Shown one piece after another: positions 17,174 through 37,332 of a stretch of DNA of 64,000 bases. Each line of letters opens with the position of its first letter. Within the stretch, counting starts at the first letter, position 1. This stretch comes from Chromohalobacter nigrandesensis. GTDB lineage: Bacteria; Pseudomonadota; Gammaproteobacteria; Pseudomonadales; Halomonadaceae. The stretch spans positions 1 through 64,000 of the forward strand of contig NZ_JAKGAM010000010.1 in the NCBI RefSeq assembly GCF_023061285.1. The letters run 5' to 3'. The notes beneath the pieces are model-generated. The model did not search any database and was not told where the DNA came from. It saw only the letters and a program-made list of their open reading frames with translations. The position numbers and the translations under genes were made by a program.

Positions 17174-17281
17174 TCAGCTTTGGGTCAAGCCTTCGAAAAA
17201 GCTCACGGCGTTGGCTTCCAGCCCCTCGAGATAATAGCCGCCTTCCTGCACCACCAGCGTCGGCAGGTCGAGGTCGGCCAC
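17174..17281 (-). pseudogene. Partial second copy of the deacetylase gene 3' end
   Basis: Positions 17189-17281 repeat 19882-19974 (last part of the deacetylase gene) with about 5 differences in 93 bp and no gaps by hand count. The copy encodes [20 protein letters not shown] and continues to FFEG, then ends in its own tail LTQS and stop, where the complete gene ends TGRVP. It has no start codon of its own family. The repeat begins at the mmuM stop codon (one shared base), so the mmuMP cassette is bracketed by direct repeats. Confidence 0.9.
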
Positions 17282-18264
17282 TATATGCCCTGGACTGGTG
17301 ATGCTTGGCGTTGCGACCGCCAATCGGCCAGTGCCTGAATATCCGCCGGTGTCGTCCGGCAGCAACCGCCGATGCCTGATGCGCCTGCCGTCAGCCAGTG
17401 CTCAACCCCTTGTGCCAGACCGAAAGGACCGACAGCGGTATAGTCGCAGGCCGCCGGATGCCAGGTTTTGGTCGCTGGGTCGTACACCTCCCCTGAGTTG
17501 GGGTAGACCAACACCGGCAGATCACACTCGCGGCGGATTTCCTCAATCAGCGATTCGATATGGGCCAACGCCGTGCAGTTCACACCGATCGCCGCCACAC
17601 CGGGGCAGTCGGCCAGGGCTCTCGCACATACCGCGATCGGCGTACCGTCGCTGATGTGTTGGCCATCCTTCGCCGAGAAAGTAATCCAGGCATGGGTATC
17701 TGGGTGCTCGGCCAATAAATCGGTGATCGCCAGCGCCTCTTCCAGGGAAGGCAATGTTTCGGCGGCCAATAGATCCGCGCCTGCGGTCAGCAGCAGCTCA
17801 AAACGCTCGCGGTGAAACTCAACCAGCCCGGCGCGATCCAGGTCATAGTTGCCGCGGTATTCACTGCCATCCGCCAGATAAGCACCATAAGGGCCGACGG
17901 ATGCCGCCACCAGCGGTTTGGGCCGGTCGGTTTGCCCCGGCTGCCACACCGCATCCCGCGCCTGCTGCGCCAGCGTGACCGATAGCTGAATCAACGCCCG
18001 CGCCTTGTCTGCCGTCAGCCCTGCCTGCATGAAACCAGGTACCGTGGCCTGGTAGCTGGCGGTAATCGCGCAGTCGGCCCCGGCTTCAAAATAAGCCTGA
18101 TGCACCTGACGGATCTTCTCCGGGGCCTGCGCCAGCAAGCGCGCCGACCAGAGGTTGTCATTGAGGTCGCAGCCTAGCGCTTCAAGCTCGGTGGCCAAGG
18201 CACCGTCGATGACCATAAAAGGCACGTCGGCCAACAAGGCCCTGATCGGATTCAACTCACTCAT
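17281..18264 (-). CDS. mmuM: Homocysteine S-methyltransferase MmuM
   Basis: A 327-residue enzyme of the Hcy-methyltransferase family. [17 protein letters not shown] at the N-terminus, [18 protein letters not shown] with the first zinc Cys and [11 protein letters not shown] with the other two are all present. It transfers a methyl group from S-methylmethionine to homocysteine, giving two methionines. Its ATG overlaps the mmuP stop (ATGA). Its own TAG stop abuts the partial deacetylase repeat to the base, so its last few codons could have been altered when the cassette arrived. Length is slightly above the usual 310. Confidence 0.94.
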
Positions 18265-19703
18265 ACAGGCTTTTTCTCAACGACGTTGTCCGCATTTACG
18301 GGGTTTTGAGCAATCCTACCGTGACGCACAAAGTGGATCAGGTAGCACAGGCCAATGAAAGGTACACCGAAATAGAGCGCCACCCGTTGTTGCGGGTCAA
18401 AGGCAATGCCAATGCACGCCGCCAGACAGGCCGCAAACGCGATGAGCGGTACCCAGGGGTAGAACGGCGTGCGATAGACTAAATCATTCACTCGCCCTCC
18501 TTCACGCAGGTATTGGCGCCGGAAGTTGAACTGGCTGAGTGCAATCGCCATCCAGACCACCACCACGGCCAGGCCGGAAATCGAAACCAGCACCAGATAG
18601 ACGGTTTCAGGGGCATAAACACTGGAGAACAGCGCCCCCAGACCGCCGACCATGCTGAGCAACAAGGCGTTCATCGGGATGCCTCGCTTGTTGAGGCGGC
18701 CAAGCGACGGGGGCAAGGTACCCTGATCCGAGAGTGTCCACAGCATGCGTGCCGAGGCATAAAGCCCGGAGTTAGCCGCCGACAGCAACGCAATGATGAT
18801 CACAAAATTCATGATATCGGCCGCGCCCGGCACCCCAAGTCGCTGGAAGACGGCCACAAAGGGGCTCTCAGTGAGCCCGGCCTGATCCTGAGGTAACAGC
18901 GCCGCGATCACGACGATGGTGCCGACAAAAAACAGGATCAACCGCCACAGGGTCGCGCGAATCGCCTTGGGCACATTGCGGGCGGGGTCCACCGTTTCTC
19001 CGGCGGCAATCCCGATCAACTCGGTACCGGAAAACGCAAACATCACCGCCAGCAAGGTGGTGCCAATGGCCAGCAGGCTGGGCGGCATGGCGCCTTCTCC
19101 CCATAGCGCCGAAAGGCCCGGTGAGGCGACTTTGGCGCCAGCGGCATCATGCAGCGGCACCCAGCCAATGATCGCCACGGCGCCCACCAGCACAAACACC
19201 ACCACCGCGATCACCTTGATCAATGAGAGCCAGAATTCAGACTCGGCAAAGAAGCGCGAGGTAAACGCATTGACGCCAAAGACGATCGCCGCAAACAAGC
19301 CACTCCAGTACCAGCCGGGGATGTCGGGAAACCAGCGCCCCATAAAGACCGCCGCCGCGGTAAACTCGGAGCCTAGCGCCACCGTCCAGGTAAGCCAGTA
19401 CATCCAAGCCACCATGTAGCCGGTTCCCGGGCCGATATAACGGCTGGCATGGGCGCTGAAGGCACCTGAATCCGGCATATGCACCGCCAGCTCGCCCAGG
19501 CACATCATCACCAACCAGGCGACAATACCGCCTACCAGATAGGCCAACACCGCGCCGATAGGCCCGGCCTGCTGCACCGTATAACCGGAACTCAGAAACA
19601 GTCCGGTGCCAATCACACCTCCCAAAGACAACATTACCAGGTGACGGGTCTGCATGCTGCGTTTGAAGTGCGCACTCTCTTGATCACTTGCTTGCCCACT
19701 CAT
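18261..19703 (-). CDS. mmuP: S-methylmethionine permease MmuP (amino-acid permease family)
   Basis: A 480-residue APC-superfamily transporter with twelve predicted helices. The N-terminus [20 protein letters not shown] and [15 protein letters not shown] are typical of the AAT group, and [20 protein letters not shown] is the conserved central motif. Its stop overlaps mmuM by four bases, which defines the substrate by context: S-methylmethionine. In other organisms similar permeases carry other amino acids, so the assignment depends on the neighbour. A bidirectional-looking hairpin upstream separates it from the deacetylase gene. Confidence 0.92.
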
Positions 19704-19803
19704 GATGACATCCCTATCGTTGGCCTAACGAGGCGGCGGCGACCCCGTGGCCCGGCTCAAAAGGAGCGCTATTTTAGTGCATCCAGCCCATTCAAAAAAG
19801 CAT

Positions 19804-35370: not shown

Positions 35371-36453
35371 ATGAATAATCAAGCCCACACACAGGAACGG
35401 CGCATCAAGGAAATTCAGCATTACTACGGTAATACCTTGGCCGACAAGAAAGATCTGACCACCAATGTCTGCACAGTGGACGAACAGCCCTCTAATGCTA
35501 CCAAAGCCATCTTGGCGAACGTCCATGACGATGTACAAATGCGCTTTTACGGTTGCGGGGCTCCGTTTCCACCGCTGCTGGAGGGCGCCACCGTGCTGGA
35601 TCTGGGTTGCGGTAGTGGACGCGATTGTTTCGTCCTGTCCAGCCTGGTCGGCGAGCAAGGCAAGGTGATCGGCGTAGATGCCACGGCCGAACAGGTCGCC
35701 TTCGCCCAGAACTATGTGGAGTACCACCGTAAGGTCTTCGGGCACGTCAAAAGCAACATCCAATTCCTGCAAGGTGAGATTGAAGCCATAGACAAACTCG
35801 ACCTTGCACCCGAGAGCGTCGATGTCATCGTTTCCAACTGCGTAATTAACCTGTCCATGGCCAAGGCCGATGTACTAGCAGGCATGGCCAAGCTGCTCAA
35901 GCCGGGTGGGGAAATTTACTTCGCCGATATCTATTCAGATCGCAGGCTATCGCCTGAGCTGAAAGACGATCCACTCATTATCGGCGAGTGCATCGGCGAT
36001 GCCCTGTATTTCGAGGACTTCGTGCGCTTGGCGCGGACTGCCGGGTTCCTTGATCCACGGGTTACCGCTAAGACCCCGAAAACCATTGCCAATCCCGCCA
36101 TTGAAGCCAAACTCGGGGGTGCAAAACTGTACTCGATCACCTTGCGGCTATTCAAAATGGATTTGGAAGACCATTGCGAGGACTACGGTCAAGTCGCCAT
36201 TTACAAGGGCAACCTACCAGAAGCTCCCGACCGATTCGTGCTAGACCATGGTCATGCTTTCGACACTGGCCGGGCAGTGCCGGTATGCCGCAATACGGCC
36301 GATATGATCAGCAAGAGCCGCTATCACGCCTTGTTCGATGTGGTTGGCGATAACCGCCGGCATTATGGTCTGTTCCAATGCGATGCACTGCAGACCGATC
36401 ACACGCTATCGACCGACACAGGCGTTTGCGGTTCCACTGGCTGCGGGTGTTAG
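35371..36453 (+). CDS. arsM: Arsenite methyltransferase ArsM
   Basis: A 360-residue SAM-dependent methyltransferase from ATG 35371 (AAAGGAAG upstream). SAM motif I is VLDLGCGSGRDCFVLSSLVG. Cysteines expected to bind As(III) are visible in NVCTVDEQ, SNCVINLS and GECIGDALYFEDF. The C-terminal domain after residue 270 resembles other bacterial ArsM and ends in a Cys-rich tail (GVCGSTGCGC). It methylates arsenite to methylarsenicals, which the upstream permease could expel. Confidence 0.92.
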   Translation: MNNQAHTQERRIKEIQHYYGNTLADKKDLTTNVCTVDEQPSNATKAILANVHDDVQMRFYGCGAPFPPLLEGATVLDLGCGSGRDCFVLSSLVGEQGKVIGVDATAEQVAFAQNYVEYHRKVFGHVKSNIQFLQGEIEAIDKLDLAPESVDVIVSNCVINLSMAKADVLAGMAKLLKPGGEIYFADIYSDRRLSPELKDDPLIIGECIGDALYFEDFVRLARTAGFLDPRVTAKTPKTIANPAIEAKLGGAKLYSITLRLFKMDLEDHCEDYGQVAIYKGNLPEAPDRFVLDHGHAFDTGRAVPVCRNTADMISKSRYHALFDVVGDNRRHYGLFQCDALQTDHTLSTDTGVCGSTGCGC

Positions 36454-36570
36454 ACAATAGCAGACCAAGAAAAGCAATCAGTAGTTCTTCGGACTGGAGC
36501 CCACATTCGTTCGAGGCCGATTCTAGCCCCGACCGTACGACCGGGGCGTGTTTCCTTTGCGCTCCTCCCC

Positions 36571-37332
36571 TCACGCATCGCGATCGATTGCGAACGCGGA
36601 CCAGGCTTGGCGCGTGGGCATGACTTCCAGGCGGTTGAAGTTGATGTGCGCCGGCAGCGTGGCGATGTAGAACATCTGCTCGGCGATGTCCTCGGCGGTG
36701 AGGGCGGTAGTGCCGCTATACAGGGCGTCGGAGGCGGCCTGGTCGCCGCCGGTGCGCACGAGGGTGAATTCGGTTTCGGCGATGCCGGGGGCGAGGTCGG
36801 TCACGCGCACGCCGGTGCCGAGCAAGTCGCAGCGCAGGTTGTAGCTGAACTGTTGAACGAAGGCCTTGGAAGCGCCGTAGACATGGCTACCGGGGTACGG
36901 CCATTGGCCGGCGATGGAGCCGACATTGACGATAGTCGCGCCGGCGCCGACGTCGATCAGCGTCGGCAGCAACGCATGGGTGACATTGACCAACCCAGTG
37001 ACGTTGGTATCGATCATGGTGTGCCAGTCGCGCCGGTCGACGTTTTGCGCGGGCTGCGGCGCCAGCGCGAGACCGGCATTGTTGAGCAGCGTGCGCACGC
37101 GCTTGAAACCTTCCGGCAACGCGGCCACGGCGGCGTCCACGGCATCGCTGTCACGCACGTCGAGCGCGACGATATGCACTGGAACCTGGCCTTGAAGCTC
37201 CTCCTTCAAGGCTTCCAAACGTTCCAGGCGGCGCCCGGTGAGTACCAACGACCAGCCTGCGGCGGCAAAGCGATGCGCGGCAGCGCGGCCAAAGCCCGAG
37301 GTGGCGCCGGTGATGAAGACACAATCCGTCAT
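36571..37332 (-). CDS. SDR-family oxidoreductase (YdfG-like hydroxy-acid dehydrogenase)
   Basis: A 253-residue short-chain dehydrogenase. [20 protein letters not shown] is the TGxxxGxG nucleotide site, followed by [16 protein letters not shown], the catalytic Ser in [10 protein letters not shown] and YxxxK as YGASK. The closest named relatives are YdfG serine/3-hydroxypropionate dehydrogenases that use NADP. GGAGG precedes the ATG. Its last 62 codons exist again at 33519-33707. A TauE-like exporter gene lies upstream on the same strand, 39 bp away. Confidence 0.92.

Follow-up and report, generated by a model that had tools for sequence, protein, structure and literature searches.

In a 64,000-nucleotide stretch of the Chromohalobacter nigrandesensis genome (the window, part of contig C2 of genome G000), two small gene cassettes, mmuMP and ars, each lie directly behind a host gene and have a diverged partial copy of that gene's 3′ end on their far side. 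The host gene is a histone deacetylase-like gene (HDAC) at the mmuMP site and a short-chain dehydrogenase gene (SDR) at the ars site, and a third case was found on C2 at ruvX. With a probability of roughly 0.6, we read these as accessory genes inserted behind host genes at variable loci that lack an integrase, and the partial copies as scars of homologous recombination. Comparison with related genomes reveals sites that are empty or differently filled, a native gene end that lies on the far copy, and SDR flanks that have been swapped between gene and remnant.

Duplicated Gene Ends beside Two Cassettes

Ten Chromohalobacter genomes including the source were compared, with the nine relatives labeled G001 to G009. 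A direct-repeat search of window positions 14–40 kb returned three families, two of which are the repeat pairs of the preliminary description of this DNA, and BLAST confirmed both as real (E values of 2.5e-84 and 1.5e-36), excluding chance. The repeat length stands for SDR at 189 bp, whereas the duplicated HDAC stretch is 91 bp (19883–19973 vs. 17190–17280, four differences); the longer HDAC match of 133 bp and 85% identity consists of these 91 bp plus 42 bases of weak similarity. Domains were assigned with Pfam to the larger open reading frames (ORFs) of the cassettes, and no recombinase domain was detected in the scanned proteins, in agreement with the earlier statement that the cassettes contain no recombinase.

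The HDAC Site

Five relatives (G001, G002, G003, G007, and G009) encode an HDAC ortholog, and the other four (G004, G005, G006, and G008) only a distant homolog. mmuMP is absent at HDAC in all five ortholog carriers, and in each of them HDAC continues directly into the DNA that lies beyond the partial copy in the window, so 17174–17280 is the native 3′ end, still in its original position, with the native stop codon at 17174–17176 as read by eye. Homology of the full HDAC gene with the relatives stops at 19883; its last 19 bases (19864–19882) match none of the five and are cassette-side DNA. In our translation, the full gene ends in TGRVP and the partial copy in LTQS. The stop codon of mmuM (17281–17283) directly abuts the remnant. 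The preliminary description had presented the architecture as regenerating the 3′ end of the host gene, a label that fits less well: the native HDAC end and stop are on the partial copy, and the full SDR gene ends in DRDA, whereas its partial copy and the SDR of all seven relatives compared end in DYDE. A displaced native end is the better reading of these alignments. That the host genes are unharmed is only roughly true, since the C terminus of HDAC is changed.

The nearest relative of the window is G007 (97–99% identity in 2-kb bins at 8–16 kb and 20–30 kb), and divergence from it shifts on both sides of mmuMP. Mismatches number 48 of 798 positions in 19883–20680 vs. 74 of 6,564 in 20681–27245 (Fisher P = 1e-16, with the boundary chosen after inspecting the data), and the unforced best change point falls at 20603 with a log-likelihood gain of 38. 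On the opposite side, only 90 of the 300 bases of 16801–17100 align to G007 (43/150 in 16801–16950 and 47/150 in 16951–17100), and the neighboring stretches reach 97–98%. The two shifts together indicate that the mmuMP cassette and about 0.7 kb of HDAC have a history separate from that of their flanks, as a double crossover predicts. HDAC is the only one of the three loci whose flanks carry a recombination breakpoint signal; no clear divergence contrast with G007 is visible in the SDR and ruvX flanks.

The 1-Cys peroxiredoxin gene that forms the left flank adjoins the HDAC site in eight relatives (G001, G002, G003, and G005 to G009). One of these, G008, has no HDAC ortholog and carries mmuP-mmuM beside the same peroxiredoxin gene with 87% identity to the window. 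Its locus lacks 195 bp that contain most of the remnant, and the join carries an imperfect repeat of 14 bp; origin of the G008 form by deletion from a window-like form is plausible, though not proven. An mmuP match at E ≤ 1e-180 is present in 44 of 275 genomes of the family, the source genome counted.

The SDR Site

The SDR gene end at 36571–36759 recurs at 33519–33707 with 93.1% identity (13 differences, of which six fall in the last 21 bases), and similarity extends through a terminator-like hairpin to 36527 and 33476, respectively. Remnants of SDR were sought in eight genomes, within 9.2–13.9 kb downstream and 4.4–9.8 kb upstream of each SDR gene; G008, where a contig end cuts the locus, and G004, which has only a paralog, were left out of the count. 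Six of the eight (the window, G001, G002, G005, G007, and G009) have a remnant downstream, and none has one upstream. The remnant reaches 189 bp into the gene in the window, 455–457 bp in G001, G002, G007, and G009, and 44 bp in G005. With the 457-bp scar common to four genomes and the 44-bp one maybe a decayed form of it, two boundaries are certainly independent, and the remnants do not share one constant crossover position within SDR. The shared fragment of about 457 bp is decaying and adjoins a LysE-type gene in G001, G007, and G009; it either predates these species or spread among them.

Contents of the site differ between genomes. The near-empty form is that of G006, where SDR and the cupin gene are only about 0.36 kb apart; the cupin gene is present in five of the seven relatives compared (G001, G003, G006, G007, and G009). 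Cargo in the window consists of ars genes and, filling the segment from the cupin gene to the SDR remnant (31626–33466), a Tle1-like gene and a YefM/YoeB pair, and in G001 of GGDEF, LysE, LysR, PrpF, and TctA proteins, named by Pfam for the larger proteins of the module bar one. A further protein of the G001 module is one that we take to be TctC-like. Genes of the G001 type were recognized by eye in ORF translations from G003, G005, G007, and G009. Cassettes have thus turned over between conserved flanks, and no mobile-element genes were seen at the site.

The 250 bp behind each SDR gene and each remnant were compared at a threshold of E 1e-6. The Tct-side flank follows the true SDR gene in G003 and G009 but the remnant in G001 and G005. 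The GGDEF-side flank follows SDR in G001, G005, and G007, and the cupin-side flank follows SDR in G006 and the remnant in G007 and G009. Such swapped flanks are the outcome expected of recombination between gene and remnant, or of entry at either. The flank of the window's own remnant has 21–42 bp, in the terminator region, in common with several other flanks.

Two candidate sources of the altered SDR terminus were rejected. Gene conversion from a paralog on C50 was dropped, as this paralog ends in VDRD followed by a stop on different DNA. Acquisition of the entire SDR end from the genus g20 was dropped, since both copies have mostly Chromohalobacter-type sites; the g20-like positions are the last codons of the full SDR copy and four sites found in both copies.

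A Third Example at ruvX and the Frequency of the Pattern

The third clean case is a 235-bp repeat (229 identical positions) at C2:103646–103880 and 115553–115787 that covers the convergently oriented ends of a permease gene and of ruvX and encloses an 11.67-kb insert. The insert is missing in all nine relatives. The permease–ruvX junction is uninterrupted in seven of them; in G001 and G008 the permease gene is largely or entirely missing. The ten largest insert proteins include a glutamine synthetase-like enzyme, an aldehyde dehydrogenase, a P450, and a reductase, and no recombinase was found among these ten. A reductase match at E ≤ 1e-100 occurs in 4 of 275 family genomes, including the source. 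The HDAC and SDR partial copies do start at a GTG codon, as had been noted; the ruvX copy starts at CGC (by eye), so the GTG start is probably chance, and it was rejected as a rule.

A direct-repeat scan of 1.664 Mb of the source genome (46%; repeats 0.5–15 kb apart) gave 12 pairs, and an earlier scan with looser settings gave 13 pairs in 864 kb. Only HDAC, SDR, and ruvX are clear cases among the 12, making the pattern rare within the scanned sample. Seven pairs are intergenic, inside one gene, or in small ORFs, as judged with a rough custom gene caller, and two, at C1 147–149 kb and C12 78–83 kb, are ambiguous. The genes of the ambiguous pairs are presumably Rpn-like and VapC-like; partial copies of the Rpn-like gene end flank or adjoin the VapC-like genes at C1:146–150 kb and C12:77–84 kb, and these are possibly the same kind of scar with toxin-antitoxin cargo.

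So few clear cases in 1.66 Mb, together with repeat lengths that vary (91 bp, 189 bp or 232 bp with the hairpin, and 235 bp) and have no common ends, would suit independent accidents with no common process, a coincidence retained because gene tails tolerate insertion. We consider this quite unlikely, given that the SDR end has been used repeatedly by several cassettes within the genus and that a third case lies on the same contig, although C2 was chosen because two of the three lay there. The preliminary description had held that accidents would be the simpler explanation if no further examples turned up and both arrangements were conserved across the genus; ruvX supplies a further example within 46% of one genome, and the HDAC and SDR arrangements vary within Chromohalobacter.

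Proposed Homologous Recombination and Its Alternatives

Under the favored reading, foreign DNA would join at a host gene end, and the native 3′ end or one of its alleles would remain beyond the insert. The join would be ordinary homologous recombination with the gene end as anchor on one side, either by a single crossover with DNA already carrying that gene end or by a homologous crossover at one junction combined with an illegitimate join at the opposite one. Cassettes would later spread and reshuffle between lineages via crossovers in the flanking genes and the repeated gene ends. Dependence on RecA, the form of the incoming DNA, and the order of events are what we infer. Taken together, the earlier observation is partly confirmed and its interpretation partly supported: the recurrent, homology-assisted route that it proposed gains from the third example, from sites empty or refilled in relatives, and from SDR flanks found on gene or remnant.

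Across HDAC, SDR, and ruvX, the repeat copies differ at 23 positions. At 11 of these, other Chromohalobacter genomes show each of the two states, vs. an expectation of 1.7 under uniform mutation, and none of 50,000 draws reached 11. The expectation rises to about 8.6 of 23 if only already variable sites mutate, which makes 11 not unusual, so the count favors, without proving, the view that the copies represent two alleles.

This last expectation weighs against the favored reading, as do several other observations. The extra SDR copy that a simple single crossover predicts between Tct and GGDEF in G009 was not found, no donor allele turned up for either cassette, ars or ruvX, and ruvX was not found beside the ruvX cassette in three 20-kb loci of other genera. 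No flank matching the window's SDR downstream flank or either G002 flank was detected at E 1e-6. Identity of 2-kb bins between the window and G007 ranges from 88 to 99% along the contig, so the sole guide to the direction of the HDAC exchange, into the window or into G007, is that the remaining HDAC carriers lack mmuMP, and the direction is not proven. The presence of ComEC in the source genome speaks for the favored reading, but its occurrence in 10 of 14 control genomes marks it as widespread and not as proof of competence. Finally, the two ruvX copies are 97.4% identical to each other, and the closest relative reaches at most 217/234 (92.7%), which also fits duplication within the lineage.

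Such duplication, by template switching at replication or as a local tandem event, with the cassette copied or captured between copies that diverged later, is an alternative that we hold to be unlikely. At ruvX, there is no difference in the first 112 bp of the repeat, and at SDR both copies are g20-like at sites 681, 682, 687, and 699, where G007 has only two such states and the six other Chromohalobacter none. Duplication within the lineage accounts poorly for the excess, under the uniform null, of polymorphisms common to the copies and the genus, for an identity between the SDR copies (93.1%) close to that between the window and G007 in that region (94.2%), and for the exchange of SDR and SDR′ flanks among species.

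A site-specific integrase, lost or acting in trans, could instead have inserted the cassettes with gene ends of their own. The preliminary description had assumed that integrases targeting gene ends leave short, near-identical repeats; e14, according to PMC11148124, is an exception, a prophage in icd that leaves a 165-bp tail copy with 12 changes. The SDR pair closely resembles it in length, divergence, and position on the far side, and the full SDR gene bears a nonnative terminus, as integrative replacement would leave. PF00589, the one recombinase family searched genome-wide, has five matches elsewhere in the source genome and none on C2. The e14 prophage has a putative integrase gene, whereas none was seen here, and the SDR remnants begin at differing points. 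Cassette ends have no common motif (best match E 0.12), and a shared end motif was dropped as a candidate after this comparison; a tRNA or tmRNA attachment site was also dropped, none being present in the window. Absence of PF00589 from C2, lack of an end motif, three unrelated target genes, and varying SDR remnant starts together speak against a site-specific enzyme; a recombinase acting in trans, which the preliminary description had offered as another route, is disfavored, and we judge the integrase account improbable.

As an extension of homologous recombination, the SDR end might serve as a portable homology handle, with cassettes that carry it looping out at the direct repeats as circles or moving as fragments, a doubtful proposal at present. 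If it were true, such cassettes could use host recombination to re-enter wherever an SDR or SDR′ end is present, in a cycle that needs no integrase and leaves the host gene intact.

Relation to Known Systems

Our best reading is a hotspot process without integrase that belongs to a known kind, insertion with long target duplication; the pattern also fits element-free hotspots that recombine at their flanks. Insertion with long target duplication was described in Helicobacter pylori by Nobusato et al. 2000 (as reported in PMC1643837 and PMC4978471), where inserts between long direct target copies were likewise recognized by comparing related genomes. Long target duplications and insert-free sites in relatives are both found here (HDAC, 5/5; ruvX, 9/9; SDR, remnants in 6/8 and a near-empty G006). 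Unlike the H. pylori cases, the duplicated target is the 3′ end of a gene, and in place of the restriction-modification genes that are frequent, though not obligatory, there (PMC1643837), the cargo comprises metabolic, transport, and arsenic-type genes, with no restriction-modification domains among the scanned cassette proteins.

Hotspots of horizontal gene transfer without mobile elements recombine at flanking core genes, according to Oliveira et al. 2017 (PMC5635113). The present loci resemble them in cassette turnover between conserved genes, in the absence of visible mobile-element genes, and in the flank recombination signal at HDAC, and differ in having junctions marked by remnants of gene ends. 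Homology-facilitated illegitimate recombination was proposed for effector and immunity arrays of the type VI secretion system (PMC5361080; see also PMC3240628), in which a new module is similarly joined beside a conserved anchor and the older 3′ part is pushed outward; effector genes are replaced there, whereas here the host gene is retained and only its tail is present twice. In pneumococci, transformation can generate duplications via repeats (PMC3784515). A literature search on Chromohalobacter and genomic islands gave no account of the pattern among the matches listed, and we make no claim that it is absent from print. Many accessory-gene hotspots lack an integrase, and ideas of how genes first enter them rest mostly on inference. 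Scars of gene tails, polarized by comparison with insert-free sites and with one cassette on gene or scar, offer a concrete test system for the entry step.

Features of the Two Loci and Minor Observations

Table 1. Features at the HDAC and SDR sites in window coordinates
Feature	Position	Strand	Basis
1-Cys peroxiredoxin gene, conserved left flank of HDAC locus	16158..16790	+	Pfam AhpC-TSA/1-cysPrx_C
HDAC′ remnant, native 3′ end and native stop, joined to native downstream DNA (duplicated part 17190–17280)	17174..17280	-	Alignment with five relatives
mmuM, homocysteine S-methyltransferase, cassette	17281..18264	-	PF02574
mmuP, amino acid permease, cassette	18261..19703	-	PF00324
HDAC, histone deacetylase-like gene, full gene	19864..20892	-	PF00850, alignment
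Cupin gene, left flank of SDR hotspot	30807..31418	+	Pfam cupin
Tle1-like protein, variable segment	31626..32651	+	PF09994
YefM/YoeB toxin-antitoxin pair beside SDR′ remnant	32920..33466	+	PF02604, PF06769
SDR′ remnant, 189-bp gene end and terminator-like hairpin	33476..33707	-	93.1% over 189 bp
ArsR-type regulator, cassette	33839..34153	-	HTH_20/HTH_5
ArsP-type permease, cassette	34268..35272	+	PF03773
Methyltransferase, cassette (start perhaps 35371; ArsM-like label from context only)	35308..36453	+	Methyltransf_31
SDR, short-chain dehydrogenase, full gene with altered C terminus	36571..37332	-	PF00106

Among the loci compared, a Tle1-like protein of more than 45% identity was found only in the window's own loci, and three mmuP loci from a different genus contain matches of 34–38%. 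Upstream of mmuP, an inverted repeat at about 19800–19850 (GGCTxCTATATT..AATATAGAAGCC) is also present in G008. Homology of mmuMP stops near 19845–19848 in G008 and in four of the five loci compared from other genera, and at 19807 in the fifth. At 15961–15990, the window is missing about 3.0 kb relative to all seven relatives aligned on both sides (G001, G002, G003, G005, G006, G007, and G009), and G008 aligns with the window here without a break.

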